From positions 1 through 54,539 of the forward strand of contig JAIETJ010000029.1 of NCBI GenBank assembly GCA_019745275.1: a DNA stretch of 54,539 nt, in the 5' to 3' direction. The stretch comes from Pseudomonadaceae bacterium. GTDB lineage: Bacteria > Pseudomonadota > Gammaproteobacteria > Pseudomonadales > Pseudomonadaceae. Made by a program: the position numbers and the translations under genes. The notes under the pieces are model-generated. The model saw only the letters and a list, made by a program, of their open reading frames with translations. It did not search any database and was not told the origin of the DNA. This document shows, piece by piece, positions 6,978 to 54,410 of this stretch. Numbering within the stretch: position 1 is the first letter of the stretch; the number at the start of each line of letters is the position of its first letter.

Positions 6978-7346
6978 ATGCGTAGCTTGTTATTGCTCAC
7001 TGTCGCTGTGCTGCTGTGCGGCTGCACGCGTTTCATGGCGGACTATCACCTCGACAACGCCTATCGCTACTACTCCCAAGGTAACTGCAACCAGGTGAGC
7101 TTGGAGTTGTCGCAAGCCGAGCGACAGATTCGCGCGCGGCCGTACTTGCAGCCGGAGATCTCGCTGTTGCGTGGTCAGTGTTTGGAGCGCGACAATATGT
7201 TTGTCGATGCCGAGCAAACCTATCAGTTTATTGTTTCGCGTTATCCGGGCAGCGAGTATGCCTACCGGGCCAAGGCGCGCTTGAATACACTGGAACAACT
7301 GGGCCACTTGCGTCGCGGCGTTAAAGTTTCAGCGCAGGCGTTGTAG
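6978..7346 (+). CDS. Small TPR-type lipoprotein
   Basis: A 122-residue protein with signal peptide and lipobox LLCGC (C16). The mature part has a tetratricopeptide-like pair of helices (DNAYRYYSQGNCNQVSLELS; DAEQTYQFIVSRYPGSEYAY). ATG 6978 is preferred over an upstream in-frame start at 6921 because AAGGAG sits eight bases before it and the signal peptide starts here. It is divergent from the other lipoprotein at 6763 with about 215 bp between, enough for two promoters. No enzymatic motif; role unknown, probably an envelope scaffold. Confidence 0.8.
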   Translation: MRSLLLLTVAVLLCGCTRFMADYHLDNAYRYYSQGNCNQVSLELSQAERQIRARPYLQPEISLLRGQCLERDNMFVDAEQTYQFIVSRYPGSEYAYRAKARLNTLEQLGHLRRGVKVSAQAL

Positions 7347-7441
7347 TTTTCGTTAGCCTCCAGTGACCACGCGCCACTGGTCGACTCGTGCCAAGCGCGG
7401 TGCGTTCAGGGATATCCTTAATCATTACAGGGAGTAAATAC

Positions 7442-7864
7442 ATGCGGTCTTTTGTACTGTGCATCCTGCTGCTGCCGTCCATCGCCAGTGCCGAGATTTA
7501 TCGTTGGACCGATGCTAATGGGCAGGTGCATTTTGGTGAGGCGCCACGTGCGGGTGCCGTGCCGGTTGAGGTGAAACCTCAGGTCGTGCAGCAAGATGCA
7601 GCCGCCGCCGAGCGCCAGCAACGTAGTGAGCGTTTTTTCCAAGCACGCCGTGAAGAACAGCAGCAGGCGGCAGAAAAAAACCAAGAGCTGCGGGCTAAGA
7701 GCGCTCAGGAGTGTCAGCAATTGCGCGAGCAATATGCCCAGTTGGCGCAGGGCGGTACTTTTTATAAAGTCGATGCCCAAGGCGAGCGGCAGTACTACGA
7801 TGAAGCGAAAGTCGATAGCGCTCGCAGTCGCTTAAAAGAACGTTTGGCACAGCGCTGCAATTGA
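7442..7864 (+). CDS. DUF4124 domain exported protein
   Basis: A 140-residue protein with a signal peptide of about 18 residues (cleavage near IASA-EI), then the DUF4124 signature EIYRWTDANGQVHFGEAP, then a charged, glutamine-rich helical stretch (about 55-105) likely to form a coiled coil, and a short tail with YYDEAKVDSARSRL. ATG 7442 has an AGGGAG ribosome site. DUF4124 proteins are common in Pseudomonas and their function is unknown; the WTD...G.VHF signature is the visible family mark. Confidence 0.85.
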   Translation: MRSFVLCILLLPSIASAEIYRWTDANGQVHFGEAPRAGAVPVEVKPQVVQQDAAAAERQQRSERFFQARREEQQQAAEKNQELRAKSAQECQQLREQYAQLAQGGTFYKVDAQGERQYYDEAKVDSARSRLKERLAQRCN

Positions 7865-7958
7865 GCGCTGGAACGGCGTAAGAGCAATATTGATTGATGA
7901 CTGGCGGCTACAGCTTTGTGTGGCCATACTCAGGTTTTACTACTAGCGATTTGCCAGC

Positions 7959-8318
7959 ATGCGAACTCAGCGCAGTATCGACCGCCACCAGTTGCCGTAT
8001 TACCTCAAGGTGTTCAATCGGATTACCGACAAGCCAATGGGCAGTATTGGCAATGTGTCGTTGGATGGTTTGATGCTGATCAGCCAGTTGCCGATTTTGC
8101 TCAATGCTCGCTTTGACATGCGCTTGAAAATCCCCGGCCGCGACGGCCATCTGCACTTTGTCGACTTTCACGCCACCTGTCAGTGGTGCCGTGAAGATGT
8201 CACCCCCGGCAGTTTCGACTCAGGCTTTGCCTTGGTGGCACCGCCTGCCGACTACGTTGAGTTGGTCGACGCCCTGCGCTACTACTTCAGCTTTCGCACC
8301 ACCTCCGCTTCGGCGTAG
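7959..8318 (+). CDS. PilZ domain c-di-GMP receptor
   Basis: A 119-residue single PilZ domain. Both cyclic-di-GMP contact motifs are present: RxxxR as RSIDR at residues 5-9 and [D/N]xSxxG as NVSLDG about 24 residues later. It should therefore bind the second messenger and act as an adaptor. No output domain is attached. ATG 7959 is used although no good ribosome site precedes it. It lies a few kilobases from a diguanylate cyclase at 276-1403 and matches the PA4324 position. Specific target unknown. Confidence 0.85.
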   Translation: MRTQRSIDRHQLPYYLKVFNRITDKPMGSIGNVSLDGLMLISQLPILLNARFDMRLKIPGRDGHLHFVDFHATCQWCREDVTPGSFDSGFALVAPPADYVELVDALRYYFSFRTTSASA

Positions 8319-8334
8319 GTGGCGGTAACAGACC

Positions 8335-9666
8335 CTAGAGCACTCCAGCTTTTTTCCAGGCCAAATACTGGCTGACTAACTCCGGACCTAGCTCGCTGGG
8401 CAGTGCATCCAGCACCGGCACGCCGTTGGCGGCCAAGCGCTCGTGCAAGTTAGCGCGGGCATTGAGGTAGTCGACGCTGCCGCAATAAGCCAATGCCGTT
8501 TCGTAATCGTGCACTTGGGTGTGGCGCAGACTATCCAGCACTTCCTCGCGCAGGCTCACCAGTAACACCCGGTGCTGGCGGCTGAGACGTTTGACTGCGG
8601 CGAGCAACTCCTCGTCATCCTCATCGCGCAAATTACTCACCAGCACCACCAAGGCGCGGCGGCGTTGCCGGGTGAGGAGGTTGTTGATAGCCGCGCTGTA
8701 GTCGGCCGGGCGCTGGGTGCTTTGCAGGTCGTACACGCCATTGAGCAGGGTGCTCAGGTGTGCTTGGCCTTTTACCGGGGCAATAAAGCGTGGCTGCTCG
8801 CTGGCAAAGGTCGCCAAACCGACCGCATCGCCTTGGCGCAGGGCCACATAGCTGAGCAGCAGGCAGGCGTTTAGGGCATGGTCGAAATGCGCAAGGTCGC
8901 CATCTTGGCTGCGCATGCGCCGGCCGCAATCGAGGAGAAACACTATCTGCTGATCGCGCTCATCTTGGTACTCGCGGGCAATCGGTGTGCGTTTGCGCGC
9001 AGTGGCTTTCCAGTCGATCTGCCGCAGGGTGTCGCCGTCACGAAAGTCGCGCAGCTGGTGAAACTCCAAACCTAGGCCACGGCGCTGTTGTTGGCGTACG
9101 CCTAATTGGCTGAGCCAGTCGTCCACAGCCAGTAGTTGCGCGCCGTGAATACGGGCGAAATCGGGGTAGACCCGGGTTTGTCCGTTGACTTCGATCAGCC
9201 GGCGGGCGTGCCATAACCGCAGTGGGCTGGGCAGCGCCACCTCGCAACGGGCTAAGTTAAAGTGTCCACGGGCCAGCGGTCGCACTCGATAACTGCATTG
9301 GCTGTGGCGCTGCGGTTGCAACTCGATGCGCTGTGGTAAGTGCTCGAAGGCCATCGCCTCGGGCAGATGGTCGAACAGCTCAATGCGCACCGGATGCCGA
9401 TAATCGTGGTGAATCTGTAGCTGTACTTCGCTCCAGCGGCCTAGCGGTAAGTTACCGGCTAAGGTGCGCTGCAGGCGGGGCGAGGGCAGTTGCCGCAGCC
9501 ACAGCGCATCCAGCGCGGCGACCACTAGCAAAGCCAACAAAGCGCCGGCCCACAGCAAGCTAACACTGGCCGGCAGTTTCACCCCCAGTACCGGCAGGGC
9601 ACCCAGCACAATGGCGGCGGCCAGCAGGAACGCCAGCAGAGCCAGCAGTAGGCGAGAAGGCTTCAT
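8335..9666 (-). CDS. DUF58 domain membrane protein (vWA-like)
   Basis: A 443-residue protein. Two hydrophobic segments lie in the first 60 residues, followed by a beta-rich middle and the DUF58 core GLEFHQLRDFRDGDTLRQ, IDWKATARK and REYQDERDQQIVFLLDCG. The last begins a von Willebrand A-like fold in which the usual DxSxS metal site reads DCGRR, so metal binding may be lost. DUF58 proteins are standard partners of MoxR ATPases. Its ATG overlaps the MoxR stop by four bases (ATGA), making it the last gene of the seven-gene operon. It is convergent with the PilZ gene 17 bp away. Confidence 0.9.
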   Translation of the reverse strand: MKPSRLLLALLAFLLAAAIVLGALPVLGVKLPASVSLLWAGALLALLVVAALDALWLRQLPSPRLQRTLAGNLPLGRWSEVQLQIHHDYRHPVRIELFDHLPEAMAFEHLPQRIELQPQRHSQCSYRVRPLARGHFNLARCEVALPSPLRLWHARRLIEVNGQTRVYPDFARIHGAQLLAVDDWLSQLGVRQQQRRGLGLEFHQLRDFRDGDTLRQIDWKATARKRTPIAREYQDERDQQIVFLLDCGRRMRSQDGDLAHFDHALNACLLLSYVALRQGDAVGLATFASEQPRFIAPVKGQAHLSTLLNGVYDLQSTQRPADYSAAINNLLTRQRRRALVVLVSNLRDEDDEELLAAVKRLSRQHRVLLVSLREEVLDSLRHTQVHDYETALAYCGSVDYLNARANLHERLAANGVPVLDALPSELGPELVSQYLAWKKAGVL

Positions 9667-26167: not shown

Positions 26168-27186
26168 CTGATCACGCCTTACTGTTAATTAATCTGGGTT
26201 CGCCGGCCTCGCCACAAGTGGCGGATGTGCGCAGTTATCTTAACGAATTTTTGATGGACCCTTATGTGATCGATTTGCCGTGGCCGCTGCGGCGCTTATT
26301 GGTGTCATTGATTTTGTGGAAGCGTCCTGCCGCTTCCGCCCATGCCTACGCGTCTATCTGGTGGCCTGAGGGCTCACCGCTGGTGGAAATCAGTCGGCGC
26401 CTGCAAACCTTGATGAAAGGCCAGTGGCGGCACGGCCCGGTGGAGTTGGCCATGCGTTACGGCGAGCCATCGCTCGACACAGTTTTACAGCGCTTGGCGG
26501 CGCAGGGCGTTCGCCGGGTGACCTTGGCGCCCCTGTACCCACAGTTTGCTGACAGCACCGTGACCACCGTGATTGCAGAAACCCAGCGGGTAGTGGCTGA
26601 GCGCAAGTTGGATCTGCAGTTTTCACTTTTGCAGCCGTTTTATCAGCAGCCGGAATACATTGAGGCTTTGGCCGAGAGCGCCCGTGCGCACTTGGCCCAA
26701 GGTTTTGATCACTTGCTGCTGAGCTTTCACGGCTTGCCCGAGCGTCATCTGCACAAGCTTGACCCGAGCGGGGAGTGTTTAAAAGGTCCGGATTGCTGCC
26801 GCACGGCCTCACCTGCGGTGTTGGCCAACTGTTATCGCGCTCAGTGCGTGCGCAGCGCCGAGTTGCTGGCGGCCAAGTTGGGGCTGCAACCTGAGCAATG
26901 GTCGATGTCGTTTCAGTCGCGTTTAGGTCGGGCTAAGTGGATCGAACCCTACACCGAGGCGCGCCTCACCGAGTTAGCCGGGCAGGGGGTGCAGAAACTC
27001 TTGGTCATGTGTCCGGCATTTGTCGCCGACTGCATCGAAACCTTGGAAGAAATCGGCATTCGCGGCCGCGAGCAGTTTCAGGCCGCCGGGGGCGGTGAGT
27101 TGCTGCTGGTGCCCTGCTTAAACGAGCAAGCAAGCTGGGGCGTTGCGCTCAATAAGTTGTGCGAGCGCGCGCCCTTGAGTCTATAA
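26164..27186 (+). CDS. hemH: Ferrochelatase
   Basis: A 340-residue enzyme that inserts ferrous iron into protoporphyrin IX, the last step of haem synthesis. The catalytic His is in [11 protein letters not shown] (H189) and the acidic patch is [17 protein letters not shown] cysteine-rich segment (C205, C211, C212, C223, C228) replaces the DPYxxxC loop of E. coli-type enzymes; I recall this as the usual Pseudomonas form, and it may bind an iron-sulfur cluster. Start ATG 26164 overlaps the previous stop. It is followed by convergent uraA. Confidence 0.95.
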
Positions 27187-28505: not shown

Positions 28506-29144
28506 TCAGGCGTCTTTTTGTTTGGTGCCGAAAATTTTATCGCCGGCATCACCAAGGCCGGGAATGATGTAGCCGTGCTCGTTCAGGCACTGATCGATTG
28601 AGGCGGTGAAGATCATTACCTCGGGGTGAGCCTTGTGCACGGTTTGAATACCTTCCGGGGCGGCCACTAACACCATGGCGCGAATCTCTCTGCAGCCCGC
28701 ACGTTTTAGCAGGTCGATGGTGGCGACCATTGAACCGCCGGTGGCCAGCATCGGGTCGATGATCAGCGCTAGGCGCTCGTCGATTTCCGGCACCAGCTTT
28801 TCCAAGTAAGTGTGTGCTTCGAGGGTTTGCTCGTTACGCGCCACGCCCACGGCGCTGACCTTGGCACCGGGAATCAAGCTAAGTACGCCATCCAACATGC
28901 CGATACCGGCGCGCAGAATCGGCACTACAGTAATTTTCTTGCCGGCGATTTTTTCCACTTGTACCGCACCGCACCAGCCTTGGATTTCGATGCTTTCCAG
29001 AGGTAGATCGGCAGTCGCTTCGTAAGTCAGCAGGGCGCCGACTTCTTGCGCCAGTTCGCGAAAGTTCTTAGTGCTGATATCGGCGCGGCGCATCAGCCCT
29101 AGCTTGTGACGGATCAGGGGATGGCGAATTTCACGAACAGGCAT
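28506..29144 (-). CDS. upp: Uracil phosphoribosyltransferase
   Basis: A 212-residue salvage enzyme that joins uracil and PRPP to give UMP. Visible motifs are [15 protein letters not shown] (N-terminus), [10 protein letters not shown], the PRPP loop [12 protein letters not shown] and the uracil-binding C-terminus [20 protein letters not shown] 29144 (MPVREIRHP) is preferred to the in-frame ATG two codons upstream because it matches the family. First gene of the upp-uraA operon. Confidence 0.97.
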
Positions 29145-35354: not shown

Positions 35355-35395
35355 GATGACGGATTGTTCGCTGCGCTCCTGAATCCGTCCTACGT
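35355..35395. repeat. REP-type palindrome related to the RAYT-flanking elements
   Basis: GACGGATT (35358-35365) and AATCCGTC (35382-35389) pair around TGTTCGCTGCGCTCC-like sequence and are followed by CTACG. This is the arrangement of the palindromes at 53477 and 54374, with two stem base pairs changed in a compensatory way. A partial extra copy of the right half (CTCCTGAATCCGTC) follows at about 35398-35411. Confidence 0.7.
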
Positions 35396-48242: not shown

Positions 48243-48653
48243 GTTACTGCGGCCTCCGTTGAGCTGCGTTAAGGGGCGCGGGTGCTTATCAGAGCATAGA
48301 CGGTTGCGCTGTGATTGCCGTCGGCGCTGAGCATCTGAGCGCCTAGGTTTGTATTCGGGCAGGGCGGTGCACCATCTGCGGGCGCAATGCCATGTTTTGG
48401 CGCACGTAAAGTGCTCTCCAAACGCACCTAACCCTCAGGCAGCGGCCAAGCAATCCTCGCCGAGGCGCTAAAATGGTCCATGGTCAAGGTGTCTGTGGCG
48501 CTTTGCTGGTGCTCGGCGGGCAGGGTTTGCGTGGCTTTGGACGAAACGGCGCGATTTTTGCTGATAGGGGGTTAGCCCTGCGTCCGCTGCGTATTGATCG
48601 CGCTGGCGCACAACCTCTTAACGCTGCCCAGACAGCGATCAGTAGGACACAGC
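48243..48653. other. 411-bp intergenic region before the molybdoenzyme operon
   Basis: Between the divergent cyclase and molybdoenzyme genes no supported ORF is seen. Short open frames in it lack ribosome sites and family features. I found no clear Fnr box, molybdenum-cofactor riboswitch fold or sigma-54 site by eye. It presumably holds both promoters. Confidence 0.4.
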
Positions 48654-50900
48654 ATGATCTTTGGCCGCAAACACCGTAAGCCGATTGCCATCCCCGCGAA
48701 AACCGTTAAAGAGTGGAAATACACCACCTGCAATTACTGCTCGACTGGCTGCGCCATCGAGTTGGGTCTGGGCGAGGACGGTCGTATCGTCACCAGTCGC
48801 GGGCATGCCGGCGCCGACGTTAATCGCGGCAAGCTGTGCATTAAAGGTCTGCTCGAACACGAACTGTTTGAATCGCCGGGACGCGGCACAGTGCCGCTTG
48901 CGCGTGACAAGGCCCATCTGCCGTTCCAGCCGACCAACTGGGACAGTGCACTGGATACCACTGCGGCCAAGATCAAAGAAATCCAACAGAAATACGGCCG
49001 CGATGCCTTCGCGGTGGTGTCCACCGGCCAGCTGCTCACCGAGGAGTTTTACACCCTCGGTAAATTGGTGCGTGGGCAGATCGGCACCAATAACTACGAC
49101 GGAAACACCACCCTGTGCATGGCCTCGGCGGTGTCCGGCTATAAGCGCTCGTTTGGCTCGGATGGCCCGCCGGGTTGCTACGACGACTTCGAACACACCC
49201 ATTGTTTGATGGCGTTTGGCTCGAATTTGCCCGAGCAACACCCGATCATCTACTGGCGCTTAAAAGAGGCGCTGGAGAAACGCAGCTTCCCGCTGATAGT
49301 GGTCGATCCACGGGTGACCATGCTGGCGCAGTTCGCCGACATTCACTTGCCGATTACCCCGGGCACCGACTGCGTGCTGATCAACGCGATGATGTACGTG
49401 ATCTTCGATGAAGGCTTGCAAGACGATGCCTACATCGCCGCGCACACCAACGGCATCGACGAGCTGCGCGCGCTGGTAGCCGACTACAACCCGAAGACCG
49501 CGCAACACGTGTGCGGCATCGACGAAGACCGCATCCGTACCGTGGCGCGTATCTACGCCAGGGCACCGACGGCCATGAGCATCTGGACCATGGGCATCAA
49601 CCAGTCGACCCATGGCTCCGATGGCGTAGTCAATATCAACAACCTCAATCTGGTCACCGGCAATATCGGTATTCCCGGCGGCACCAGTTTGTCGATCACC
49701 GGCCAGTGCAACGCCATGGGCACCCGCGAGTGGTCGTCCTGCTCGGGCCTGCCCGGTTACCGCGCGCTGGAAAAAGAAAAAGACCGCAACACAGTCGCGG
49801 ATTTTTGGGGCATCGATCCCAGCTTCTTCCCGGCCAAGCGCGGCCTAGCGCAGACCGACATCTTCCCGGCCATCGAGACCGGCGAAATCAAGGGCATGTG
49901 GCTGGTGGCGACCAATCCCATGACCTCGATGGCCAACCAACCACGGATTCGCAAGGCCATGGAGAAGCTGGAATTTCTGGTGGTGCAGGACGTCTATTCG
50001 GACGTGGAAACCACCCAGTACGCCCATGTGTATTTCCCCGCCGCCGTGTGGGCCGAGAAGGAAGGCTGCCACACCAACACCGAGCGCCGGGTCAACCTGA
50101 CCCGCAACGTGTTGCCGCCTTTCGCCGACTCAAAACCGGATTTCTGGATCTTCAACCAGATGGCCAAGCGCTTCAGCGAACGCAATAAAATCCACTTCCC
50201 CGAGACCGCCGAAGGCGCGTTCGAGGAGATGCGCGAGTTGTCCAAGGGCAAGGGCCGCACCCTGGATATTTCCGGCATGAGCTACGACCGCATCGAGGCC
50301 GCGCGCGGTATCCAATGGCCGTACAGCGAGGCGCAAGCGCAACTGGACGAGGCCGCCATCGGCCCGGTGCTGAGCTTTGATATGCAGCGCCGCCAGGACT
50401 TTATCGGTGCGCGGCGCTTGTACACCGATGGACATTTCCAGACCGACGATGGCCGCGCCAAGCTGATTCCGGTGCGCTTCTTCAACAACAACGAATGCCC
50501 AGACACTGAGTACCCGTTCTGGCTCAACTCCGGGCGGGTGGTCGAGCATTTCCACACCCGTACCCGCACCGGCAAAATCGGCAACTGCAACAAGTTCAGC
50601 CCCACGCCTTATATGGAGATGAACCCGGACGCCGCGCAAGAGCTGGGCATCGAACACCAAAGCTATGTGCGCTTGGTTAGCCGGCGCGGCGATGCGGTGG
50701 TGATGGTGCAGCTGACCCAGCGGGTCGGTCGCGACATGTTGTTCGTGCCGTTCCACTTTCACGATTGCGTTAACCGCCTGACCTTGGGCCTGCTCGACCC
50801 GCATTCACGCCAGCCGGCGTTTAAGCAAAATGCGGTGCGTGTGGAGTTGATTGACCAGCAAGAAGCAGCGCGTTTAAACCTCGAACGCCGTGCGTTCTGA
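48654..50900 (+). CDS. Molybdopterin oxidoreductase, catalytic subunit
   Basis: A 748-residue enzyme of the nitrate-reductase/formate-dehydrogenase superfamily. The N-terminal [4Fe-4S] site is C26, C29, C33 and C62 (CNYCSTGC); the molybdenum ligand is probably C155 in NTTLCMASAVSGYKRSFG, the pattern of NapA-type enzymes. FHTRTRTGKIGN belongs to the C-terminal cofactor domain. There is no twin-arginine leader, so catalysis is likely cytoplasmic. ATG 48654 with AGGA upstream is preferred to 48594. Substrate cannot be told; nitrate, sulfite or another oxyanion are all open. Confidence 0.9.
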   Translation: MIFGRKHRKPIAIPAKTVKEWKYTTCNYCSTGCAIELGLGEDGRIVTSRGHAGADVNRGKLCIKGLLEHELFESPGRGTVPLARDKAHLPFQPTNWDSALDTTAAKIKEIQQKYGRDAFAVVSTGQLLTEEFYTLGKLVRGQIGTNNYDGNTTLCMASAVSGYKRSFGSDGPPGCYDDFEHTHCLMAFGSNLPEQHPIIYWRLKEALEKRSFPLIVVDPRVTMLAQFADIHLPITPGTDCVLINAMMYVIFDEGLQDDAYIAAHTNGIDELRALVADYNPKTAQHVCGIDEDRIRTVARIYARAPTAMSIWTMGINQSTHGSDGVVNINNLNLVTGNIGIPGGTSLSITGQCNAMGTREWSSCSGLPGYRALEKEKDRNTVADFWGIDPSFFPAKRGLAQTDIFPAIETGEIKGMWLVATNPMTSMANQPRIRKAMEKLEFLVVQDVYSDVETTQYAHVYFPAAVWAEKEGCHTNTERRVNLTRNVLPPFADSKPDFWIFNQMAKRFSERNKIHFPETAEGAFEEMRELSKGKGRTLDISGMSYDRIEAARGIQWPYSEAQAQLDEAAIGPVLSFDMQRRQDFIGARRLYTDGHFQTDDGRAKLIPVRFFNNNECPDTEYPFWLNSGRVVEHFHTRTRTGKIGNCNKFSPTPYMEMNPDAAQELGIEHQSYVRLVSRRGDAVVMVQLTQRVGRDMLFVPFHFHDCVNRLTLGLLDPHSRQPAFKQNAVRVELIDQQEAARLNLERRAF

Positions 50901-50918: not shown

Positions 50919-52916
50919 ATGTTGACTAAAGATTCCGAGAACACCCCAGCCGGCGGTTGCAACGAGCAGTGGCACAGCCCGATTCAGTTCGTGCCGGCCG
51001 CCGCCAGCAGCGACGCGAGCATCTGGGAAGTGCGCACCGAGGAGCAGCCCTATGCTTTTCTCAGTGACAAAGAAGTGGCCGACAGCAACCGCTACGGGCA
51101 GAAGATCGATCTGCTGGACTTGACCGAGCACAAGCTGCCGCTCGGTCGTTCGCTGTTTATCAACGAGAACCCGGCGGTCGGCAGCAACCCTAATCGCAAC
51201 AAGCAGCATGGCTTCTTCTTCACCGCCGACAACTGCATCGGTTGCCACGCCTGCGAGGCGGCCTGCAGCGAGAAAAACAACAACCCGGCGCACCTGGCGT
51301 TCCGCTCCGTGGGTTATGTCGAGGGCGGCAGCTACCCCGACTACAAACGCATGAACATCTCCATGGCCTGCAACCATTGCGATGACCCGGTGTGCCTGAA
51401 AGGCTGCCCGACCCGCGCCTACACCAAACACGTCGAATACGGCGCGGTGTTGCAAGACCCGGAAACCTGCTTCGGCTGCGGCTACTGCACCTGGGTTTGC
51501 CCGTACAACGCGCCGCAGTTGGACCCGGTCAAAGGTCAGGTATCCAAGTGCAATATGTGTGTCGATCGCTTGGAAGTGGGCCTCAAACCGGCCTGCGTGT
51601 CGGCTTGCGTCGGCAATGCGCTGGACTTTGGCGTGATCGAAAACATCCCGGCCAACCGCGAGCAGGCGCGGGTAGAAATCCCCGGCTTCCCGTCGCCGGA
51701 AATTACCCAGCCGAACATTCGCTTCCAGCAAATCAAACAGCTGCCGGACGAGATGACCCGCACCGACTCCATGCCGGTCAAGTATCACAAGGACGCCAAG
51801 GGCCGTTATCGCCCGGCCATCGACCAGAAGCAGGGCAAAGCCAAACACTGGAACTTGGCCCGCTTAAGCTCGAAAGAAAACCCGCTGGTTCTGTTCACTC
51901 TGGCCACTCAAGCGGCGGCTGGCGCTTTCGCCTTGGCGTTCCTCGGTGCGCAATTGGGCTTGGGCGAGTTCCTGCGCTTTAGCCAATCACTGCTGTATGT
52001 GCCGCTGGCCGGTCTGTGCTTTTTGATGGTGGCGTTCGGCTTGTTTATGTCGACCATGCACCTGGGCAAACCTAAGCGTTTCTACCGTGGCTTTAACAAC
52101 CTGCGGCACTCACCGGTCTCCCGGGAGGGCTTGGGCATCGCGATCTTTATGGCGACCCTAGGCCTGCATATCCTGTTCAGCTTGCCGGCCAATGGTCTGG
52201 TGCAAACACTGTTTAGCGCGCTGTTTGGCACTGAGATCGCAAGCTTGATTGCGCCTGCCACCAGCGCCAGCTTGGCCACGGTGTTTGGTGCGCTGGCGGT
52301 GCCGTCCAGCCTGATCGGTCTGTACTACATGAACCGTTGCTACCGGATTAAAGCGCGGCCGTTCTGGAATCACTGGCAGGTCGGCACGGCATTCTTCGGC
52401 AGCATGTTCTCGCTCGGCGCGCTGGTTAGCGCACTGGTGATGATCCCAACGCTGGCCTTGCTGGGTGAAAGCTATCAAGTGGCCCTGCAAGTCAGCGCCG
52501 TGGTGCTGACCCTCGGTTTAGCCGCCGAGGCCATCGGCCACTGGGCGCATGCCAAGGCCATGGGCAGCGTAGAGAACGAGGGCGGGGCGTCGTACTACAT
52601 CCAGAGCACCACCTTCGGCAAAACCTTTATCCTGCGCAATGTGCTGTTGGGCCTGAACCTGCTGCTGGCCTCGGGCTTGCTGGCCAGCTTGTGGCTGCTG
52701 GATAACGCCGGGCTGTTTAGCCTGCTCGGCTGGGCGCTGGTCGGTAGCGTGCTGGTGCTGACCAGTCTGGTTAGCCGCGCACTCTTCTATGTGCTGGTAA
52801 TCCCGACCACCATGCCCGGCGCGTTCTTCTGGAAGAACAAAGGCTTCGAGCAGCACGCCCGCGACATCGGCTTGGCCAATATGCCGCAAGTCGGCGTGGC
52901 GCAGTTGCGGCATTGA
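50919..52916 (+). CDS. Fused 4Fe-4S ferredoxin / DmsC-type membrane anchor
   Basis: A 665-residue protein that joins two usual subunits. Residues 1-100 are a soluble extension of unknown role. Residues 106-230 hold four cysteine groups (C106/109/112/116, C151/154/159/163, C184/187/190/194, C211/214/226/230), fitting four [4Fe-4S] clusters of a DmsB-like protein. From about 325 onward there are eight hydrophobic segments, DmsC/NrfD-like, with GLFMSTMHLGKPKRFYRGF. It should link the molybdoenzyme to the quinone pool. It starts 18 bp after the catalytic gene. The fused form is less common than separate subunits. Confidence 0.88.
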   Translation: MLTKDSENTPAGGCNEQWHSPIQFVPAAASSDASIWEVRTEEQPYAFLSDKEVADSNRYGQKIDLLDLTEHKLPLGRSLFINENPAVGSNPNRNKQHGFFFTADNCIGCHACEAACSEKNNNPAHLAFRSVGYVEGGSYPDYKRMNISMACNHCDDPVCLKGCPTRAYTKHVEYGAVLQDPETCFGCGYCTWVCPYNAPQLDPVKGQVSKCNMCVDRLEVGLKPACVSACVGNALDFGVIENIPANREQARVEIPGFPSPEITQPNIRFQQIKQLPDEMTRTDSMPVKYHKDAKGRYRPAIDQKQGKAKHWNLARLSSKENPLVLFTLATQAAAGAFALAFLGAQLGLGEFLRFSQSLLYVPLAGLCFLMVAFGLFMSTMHLGKPKRFYRGFNNLRHSPVSREGLGIAIFMATLGLHILFSLPANGLVQTLFSALFGTEIASLIAPATSASLATVFGALAVPSSLIGLYYMNRCYRIKARPFWNHWQVGTAFFGSMFSLGALVSALVMIPTLALLGESYQVALQVSAVVLTLGLAAEAIGHWAHAKAMGSVENEGGASYYIQSTTFGKTFILRNVLLGLNLLLASGLLASLWLLDNAGLFSLLGWALVGSVLVLTSLVSRALFYVLVIPTTMPGAFFWKNKGFEQHARDIGLANMPQVGVAQLRH

Positions 52917-53476: not shown

Positions 53477-53605
53477 CGTAGGGCGGACTCAGGAGCGAAG
53501 CGAACAGTCCGCCATCGGTAGCGAATTCTCGGCCAATGTGCGGCGAAAACCGCTGCCATCGGTTACCGCGTATTGGTGTACTGCTTGCGGCGAGTACACC
53601 CTACG
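53477..53605. repeat. Left REP pair of the RAYT unit
   Basis: Outer palindrome: GGCGGACT (53482-53489) with AGTCCGCC (53506-53513), preceded by CGTA. Inner palindrome: GGTGTACT (53575-53582) with AGTACACC (53593-53600), followed by CTACG. Both types recur in inverted orientation to the right of the transposase gene. Confidence 0.85.
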
Positions 53606-53718
53606 TCGGATGTTCACCATACGTCTGTTGGGCGTGCGGCTTACGCGTTGCATTAATGGCGTGCCGGTTTAGCTCGTCTACCCTTGCCCTACACCTACCG
53701 CGTCATGGATGACTGCGC

Positions 53719-54252
53719 ATGTCGGACTACCGGCGTATCTGGTGCCCGGGCGGCACCTATTTCTTTACCCATACCTTGCTGCGGCGGCATGACAACGACC
53801 TGCTCATCCGTCATGTCGAGTTATTGCGCGAGGCGGTACGCATCGTGCGGCGCAGTCATCCCTTTGCGATTCATGCCTGGGTGGTGCTGCCTGAACATCT
53901 GCATTGTGTGATCGAACTGCCGCCCGGCGATTGCGATTACGCCACCCGTTGGCGGCTGATCAAGTTAATTTTCTCCCGTAGTTTGCCGGTTGCTGAACCG
54001 CGCTCGTGGCTGCAACAACTGCGGCGCGAGCGCGGCATCTGGCAGCGACGCTATTGGGAACATCAAATTCGCGATGCCGAGGATCTGCGTCGGCACCTCG
54101 ACTATGTGCACATCAACCCGCTTAAACATGGCTTGGTTGAGCGGGTCGGCGATTGGCCATATTCGACTTTTCACCGGCAGGTGGCACAAGGGCGGTATCC
54201 GGTCGATTGGGCGGGTGGGGTAGATGATGTCGAGATGCCTTTTGATGAGTAA
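53719..54252 (+). CDS. REP-associated tyrosine transposase (RAYT, Y1 family)
   Basis: A 177-residue IS200/IS605-like single-strand transposase. The HUH metal motif is in VVLPEHLHCVIELP (H-L-H), and the catalytic tyrosine is probably in RRHLDYVHINPLKHGLVE. RAYTs are single-copy, domesticated-type transposases that act on REP palindromes; this one is flanked on both sides by such elements. ATG 53719 has no strong ribosome site. The gene appears intact. Confidence 0.92.
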   Translation: MSDYRRIWCPGGTYFFTHTLLRRHDNDLLIRHVELLREAVRIVRRSHPFAIHAWVVLPEHLHCVIELPPGDCDYATRWRLIKLIFSRSLPVAEPRSWLQQLRRERGIWQRRYWEHQIRDAEDLRRHLDYVHINPLKHGLVERVGDWPYSTFHRQVAQGRYPVDWAGGVDDVEMPFDE

Positions 54253-54283
54253 GCGATGAACCTAGGGTGTGCTCGTGTTGTAG

Positions 54284-54410
54284 GGTGTACTCGCCGCAGG
54301 CAGTACGCCAAGTGACGGTGTAATTGGTGGGCTGTTAGCTTCACTCAACGGCGGGCTGTTAGCTTCGTTCATTGGTGGACTGTTCGCTTCGCTCCTGAGT
54401 CCACCCTACG
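54284..54410. repeat. Right REP elements of the RAYT unit
   Basis: GGTGTACT (54284-54291) with AGTACGCC (54302-54309) is the mirror of the inner left palindrome. GGTGGACT (54374-54381) with AGTCCACC (54398-54405), then CTACG, mirrors the outer one, with a C-G pair of the stem changed to T-A. Three 24-base tandem units (54326-54349, 54350-54373, 54374-54397) lie between and into it. Confidence 0.85.

Follow-up and report, generated by a model that had tools for sequence, protein, structure and literature searches.

Introduction

In the account of rayt gene context given by Nunvar et al. (2010, PMC2817692), rayt is always flanked by two inverted REPs, and the E. coli gene has BIME-2 elements, with Y and Z2 REPs, on both of its sides; the same passages describe the palindromes as kept, 'suggesting selection for complementary mutations'. 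HH heterodimers and REPtrons have been described (PMC3733652), and compensatory changes have been reported in REPINs (PMC3116915). For the E. coli enzyme, the sections of PMC8266576 on TnpA-REP describe cleavage that needs both GTAG and a bulge, and regard mobility of the gene itself as being without evidence.

Here we analyse a window consisting of a whole 54.5-kb contig (C10), whose source genome (G000) comprises 3.6 Mb in 154 contigs and is 86% complete. We propose that the window very probably carries a REPtron, in which a domesticated IS200/IS605-like RAYT gene lies between inverted copies of its own heterotypic BIME substrate.

Organisation of the locus

The elements of the locus follow one another in the order type 1 (+), type 2 (-), rayt (+), type 2 (+), type 1 (-). 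The left type-1 REP (53478..53513, + strand; DNA fold z -2.41), made up of a GTAG tag and an 8-bp stem with a GCGAAGC loop tip, forms the left BIME together with the left type-2 REP (53575..53604, - strand; z -4.40). The rayt gene (53719..54252, + strand) encodes a 177-aa protein. To its right lie the second type-2 REP (54280..54309, + strand; z -2.46) and the inverted type-1 REP (54374..54409, - strand; z -2.47), the two parts of the right BIME, separated by two 24-nt iterations of the type-1 loop and 3' arm (54326..54373, - strand), which were delimited by repeat family and unit search. GTAG precedes all four rayt-flanking hairpins, each on its own strand, and points outward. The outer arms are contained in a 44-nt inverted repeat (93% complementary) and the inner arms in a 32-nt repeat (94%); each 30-36-nt pattern has two matches in the window at <=3 mismatches, where 100 shuffles gave a mean of 0.00.

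A third type-1 copy (35358..35393, - strand; z -2.35) is solitary, sits between mqo and lipoprotein genes and belongs to subfamily 1b, defined by T-A at pair 7. Read on the GTAG strand, the stems are GGCGGACT/AGTCCGCC in the left type 1, GGTGGACT/AGTCCACC in the right type 1 and GACGGATT/AATCCGTC in the third copy; left and right differ by one paired change, and the third copy adds two further paired changes.

These stem letters and paired changes are as given for all three copies in a preliminary description of this DNA, whose order of elements at 53477-54410 is likewise borne out by coordinates and strands, far above chance. The location it gave holds, with each side drawn one base too wide. 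Of the two nested pairs in which it arranged the palindromes, the inverted symmetry stands, and the nesting gives way to a reading with one BIME per side, which fits better. The GTAG tags, the convergence of type 1 and type 2 into one element and the 24-nt iterations at 54326-54373 are absent from it.

Elsewhere in the window, a single ORF (50919-52916) joins 4Fe-4S DmsB-like and DmsC-like membrane parts (Pfam) and is preceded by an ORF (48594-50900) assigned by eye as molybdopterin-oxidoreductase-like. A tRNA scan of the window found nothing.

The RAYT protein

Judging by profile and structure matches, the product of 53719-54252 is a REP-associated tyrosine transposase (RAYT/TnpA-REP), an IS200/IS605-like Y1 HUH transposase of the REP-associated kind. 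The ORF matches the NCBIfam equivalog NF047646 at 196.9 bits (cut-off 80; E 1.4e-58), and the nearest solved chain is 4er8 (E 1.5e-52), with the HUH motif (H60-L-H62) and the tyrosine aligned, Y129 falling on Y115 of 4er8; the identity first proposed for this gene is thereby upheld. Pfam Y1_Tnp scores 20.2 bits, under its cut-off of 23. On the question of RAYT group 2, the class that is E. coli-like with imperfect REPs, versus group 3, the comparison covered solved chains, among which 4er8 is the best match and the only one at E<=1e-3, and the hairpin fold, which shows an interruption above the lower stem. The genome holds a second RAYT (contig C113, 7482-8398; L002 1315-2231) that is 66% identical to the RAYT of the window and is flanked on both sides by two other REP types, one of them with 11 matches.

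Dispersal of the palindromes in the genome

The preliminary description had named rarity or absence of the palindromes outside this locus as what would count against it. The 36-nt type-1 pattern has 43 matches in G000, with none in the control. A curated set of equal size was reached separately, from 53 core matches for which tag and layout were required: a rule against missing or shifted tags removed nine, and one more, in C142, was taken out by hand as a chance match; C16:41208, among those removed by the rule, may be a truncated REP. Searched more loosely, the 16-nt type-1 loop core (<=2 mismatches) occurs 61 times, against five for the reversed control, nine of the 61, all with two mismatches, having been left out of the curation. 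With the arms fixed and the loop free, 49 matches were obtained (control 0), which by eye sort into 42 with the type-1 loop, five like the REP of the second RAYT and two variants in contig C39. The latter (26909-27044 and 28817-28852) are diverged type-1 variants with altered loops, perhaps an older subfamily, and one of them has iterated arms and a type 2. The type-2 pattern has 17 matches (control 0) and a shorter type-2 core has 22, none with three mismatches (control 2). The set thus comprises GTAG palindromes, dispersed copies and inverted pairs, as in REPs and BIMEs, at a copy number that is low for REPs. A literature text search with the type-1 string returned unrelated matches only.

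By mechanically called ORFs, 34 of the 43 type-1 sites overlap no ORF of at least 150 aa, and none of the 31 sites with both neighbours lies between divergent ORFs. This placement would suit hairpins that serve mainly as host regulatory elements (terminators, mRNA stabilisers or protein-binding sites) and flank rayt by chance, and such roles are attributed to REPs elsewhere in passages of PMC2817692. Of the 398 genomes in the genus, however, 366 have no type 1; the four REPs at rayt share the GTAG-outward symmetry, and an Rfam scan of the window at the gathering threshold gave no match. We hold a mainly regulatory role to be improbable. A secondary regulatory role could accompany the REPtron.

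Type 1 and type 2 as one composite element

Type 1 and type 2, standing face to face, are better read as a heterotypic BIME, with an inverted copy on the right of the gene. Downstream of subfamily 1a (C-G at pair 7), a convergent type 2 is present at 23 of 31 copies, starting after 7-98 nt; for subfamily 1b the figure is 1 of 12, one of the 12 being cut by a contig end (Fisher p 1.2e-4 for the difference within G000). A type 2 placed upstream or in the same orientation was seen at none of the 43 type-1 copies of G000. Conversely, positional comparison places all 22 type-2 cores within about 100 nt of a type 1 with which they are convergent, and the locus is therefore a BIME, rayt and an inverted BIME, that is, a REPtron. 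The idea that type 1 and type 2 are independent families was dropped, since both go together.

The layout extends to eight other genomes, where 12 of 20 chosen type-1 sites have it and none of the 20 has a type 2 upstream. The difference between 1a and 1b in type-2 pairing fails outside G000, a 1b copy of G401 having a type 2. We also considered whether the second RAYT, the arms of whose REP are similar, is the one to which subfamily 1b belongs: in G000, 1b mostly goes without type 2, yet the G401 copy has one, and only 2 of the 12 copies adjoin the REP of the second RAYT, as judged by eye. In locus L235 of G401 (7178-8347), units bearing type 2 are arrayed beside rayt about every 134 nt, in a BIME-2-like manner.

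Hairpin fold, tag and loop

On the GTAG strand, the five copies in the window have DNA fold z scores of -2.35 to -4.40. Two complements that were tested fold about equally well (z -2.85 and -3.54), and folding therefore does not choose the strand; for the entire 130-nt BIME on the right, folding does not surpass expectation (z -1.48). Across 147 rows (43 of our own and 104 from other genomes among the matches listed), the type-1 tip reads GCGNAGC, the three bases on either side of N differing in at most four rows each. The centre base is C in 79 rows, A in 50, T in 16 and G in 2, a count biased by search patterns that left N free; the loop-free search also shows N varying. The d(GCGNAGC) fragment is an unusually stable DNA mini-hairpin. 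Type 2 has a GCC-GNA-GGC tip in 15 of 17 matches. A GNA triloop as a general feature of RAYT-associated REPs was seen by eye in several loci, not in all, and is kept here for types 1 and 2 only.

Covariation of the type-1 stem

Among 31 distinct G000 copies with eight stem pairs each (248 cells), 97.2% of the cells pair and 21 are changed on both sides; 17 are non-Watson-Crick, 10 of these being wobble and seven unpaired. The covariation score is 0.287 against 0.135 when shuffled, with 0 of 500 shuffles as high and the best slid version reaching 0.059. Stem changes left unpaired in other copies had been named at the outset as what would speak against the hairpins, and these scores instead show that the stems covary. 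Of the five covariation measures computed, two do not exceed shuffles in these 31 copies: double-change pairs (3 against 2.7) and further pair types (6 against 5.6).

The covariation falls on three of the eight pairs. Among all 43 copies, pair 2 is G-C in 31, T-A in six, A-T in one, C-G in one and A.C in four; pair 3 is C-G in 25, T-A in four, T.G in 13 and A.G in one; and pair 7 is C-G in 31 and T-A in 12, with no intermediates. For other genomes, the stem set holds 104 rows, distinct per genome, drawn from 135 among the matches listed and representing 31 genomes. Here 777 of 832 stem cells are Watson-Crick, where shuffling gave a mean of 719 and a maximum of 734. Among the same listed matches, T-A appears at pair 3 in 10 genomes and at pair 7 in six, G-C at pair 6 in seven genomes and C-G at pair 5 in one; the alternatives at pair 2 occur in none of these 31 genomes and were seen in G000 alone.

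The preliminary description had concluded from the compensatory changes that the folded form is selected. The paired changes are real; the conclusion is too strong, because hairpin-templated (quasi-palindrome) correction also yields paired changes, and the covariation supports the folded form without proving selection. That the paired changes arose by such correction, rather than through selection as RAYT substrates, and that the REPs are fossils, is to our minds possible, if on the unlikely side. The strict alternation of C-G and T-A at pair 7 in our own 43 copies fits it. So does a site in contig C116 of G000 (1b) that is orthologous, at 82.6% over 2 kb, to one in C615 of G350 (1a): the C-G and T-A states therefore both occur at one place, the one in one species and the other in the other, whether through mutation or through replacement. 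The intermediates point the other way, both those at pairs 2 (A.C, 4 of 43) and 3 (T.G, 13 of 43) and those at pair 7 elsewhere (one T.G and one C.A in the 104 other-genome rows among the matches listed). Nor does correction explain why conservation of GTAG, a tag that is not part of the palindrome, equals that of the stem.

Iterated loop-plus-arm units

Behind the type-1 3' arm, 16 of the 43 copies in G000 carry extra tandem units of loop and 3' arm, amounting to 23 units where mononucleotide shuffles lead one to expect 1.7. The first unit is 19-24 nt long, mostly 21 or 24 nt. The iterated arms agree more closely with the 5' arm of their own copy than with 5' arms elsewhere, to a degree equalled by 3 of 5000 shuffles; this match also favours hairpin-templated correction. 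At C33:5825, C62:6173 and C141:4513 the better partner for the 5' arm is a distal arm and not the proximal one. In the near relative G350, two of 10 sites examined, out of 19, have a clear iterated unit, the match at L227 being doubtful; at the 20 chosen sites in eight other genomes there were none. Literature on RAYTs, BIMEs and REPtrons, in searches that were not aimed at such arms, yielded no iterated arms.

Strand slippage between the arms is the plain cause of these units. A more tentative and rather improbable proposal is that type 1 is here a multi-armed hairpin, in which one 5' arm with tandem loop-plus-3'-arm units could form alternative hairpins of different size. If true, stem mutations might then harm the REP less, or the position of RAYT cleavage might move.

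Association of RAYT and REPs across genomes

Of 398 genomes in the genus, 32 contain type 1 and 31 the RAYT (E<=1e-60), with both present in 24; eight genomes have type 1 without a RAYT match and seven the RAYT without type 1. The p of 1e-25 for this co-occurrence is indicative only, as the genomes are related and not independent. In a tree of 48 hand-chosen RAYT loci, one supported clade has type 1 or type 2 within 1 kb in 10 of its 12 rows, two of the ten flagged rows (L083 and L168) being the same sequence (identical over 3,528 nt). Clade rows L070 and L086 are unflagged, L070 having diverged GTAG hairpins of similar make, and the flagged row L185 falls outside the clade. Type-1 and type-2 REPs thus flank mainly one RAYT clade. 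Of the 388 genomes that lack this RAYT clade, 23 carry 1-19 type-1 copies (19 in G350), and G243 has a clade RAYT and no type 1; the link between RAYT and type 1 is therefore not strict.

Mobility of the unit and of the REPs

The preliminary description had also suggested that the roughly 930-bp symmetric unit is one transposing entity. In G000 this rayt exists in one copy (in an assembly that is 86% complete) against 43 copies of type 1; the other RAYT, at 66% identity, has REPs of its own, and dispersed near-identical copies of the whole unit, as an autonomous insertion sequence would show, were not found in this genome. The copies that have multiplied are type-1 REPs and BIMEs without rayt, and we conclude that the multiplying entity is the REP/BIME and not the 930-bp unit.

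It is very unlikely, in our estimate, that BIME, rayt and inverted BIME move in one piece as a transposon. The symmetric ends invite such a reading, and, except for 31 nt that match C113, the flanks of the window's rayt have no counterpart at related RAYT loci. Furthermore, the C113 locus of G000 (L234, 3927-11892) and L235 of G401 have collinear flanks on both sides and RAYTs of different clades, so RAYT exchange at one location does happen. A search for filled and empty sites of the unit, covering 57 genomes for the left neighbour gene and 10 for the left flank, found no orthologous flank: the gene is present in two genomes, one of them G000 itself, and the flank has a single match, of 63 nt, in one genome. 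Against movement of the whole stand the single copy in G000 and the shared flanks kept by several related loci, as under vertical descent: upstream DNA is common to L164, L165, L166 and L070, downstream DNA to L165, L071 and L169, and L071 and L169 share both. In G223 (L231, 1680-4306), 1,314 bp with rayt are duplicated exactly in tandem, in reality or through the assembly, and no REPs bound this copy; PMC8266576, where it deals with tnpA-REP, reports no evidence of mobility.

At the site orthologous to 35358, neither G350 nor G261 has this REP: the intergenic region of G350 contains another GTAG hairpin, and that of G261 contains none. REPs therefore come and go there.

The REPtron model and comparison with known systems

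Taken as a REPtron, the locus might work as follows. In single-stranded form, the GTAG strand would fold into tagged hairpins at type 1 and at type 2, as fold prediction and stem covariation suggest and as presumably occurs in vivo. RAYT would recognise the tag together with the lower stem and the irregularity that follows upward, and would use Y129 to cleave near the hairpin. This step is modelled on what has been published on the biochemistry of E. coli TnpA-REP, and the residues that align are present here. The excised or copied REP or BIME would then be joined elsewhere, mostly between genes, which is consistent with the 43 scattered type-1 copies and with presence and absence between species at one site. 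The rayt gene would stay single-copy and not be amplified, as is seen in G000, and the symmetric 930-bp layout would be a source copy with its substrate on either side rather than a transposon that amplifies itself.

The locus extends the two-class BIME-plus-RAYT layout of E. coli to a Pseudomonas RAYT clade. Its natural stem variants (43 copies and 104 rows from 31 genomes) are ready substrates for testing which pairs the enzyme needs, and GCGNAGC with a free centre base predicts which property of the hairpin is kept. The location with RAYTs of different clades in two species is additionally a place to study the exchange of 'domesticated' genes.

Among described systems, the E. coli REPtron (tnpA-REP/yafM), as presented in parts of PMC2817692 and PMC8266576, shares with this locus a RAYT with HUH/Y1 residues, dispersed REPs, two classes of GTAG-tagged imperfect-palindrome REPs and BIMEs on both sides; it differs in its stem and loop sequences, in the iterated loop-plus-arm units found here and in copy number, about 43 type-1 copies standing against several hundred REPs in E. 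coli. The HH heterodimers of GTAG REP families, as outlined in PMC3733652, likewise set two different REPs head to head with a variable spacer. The REPINs of P. fluorescens SBW25, in the portions of PMC3116915 that describe them, resemble our elements in being inverted REP doublets, the likely mobile unit, and in showing compensatory changes, whereas ours join halves from two different classes across a variable spacer of 7-98 nt. With the IS200/IS605 family (IS608, ISDra2) the locus has in common a Y1 HUH transposase and hairpin substrates; unlike that family, it has inverted REPs on both sides, a gene that is not multiplying and a Y1_Tnp match under the cut-off. The locus is thus a further example of a known arrangement, to which the iterated arms add an odd local twist.
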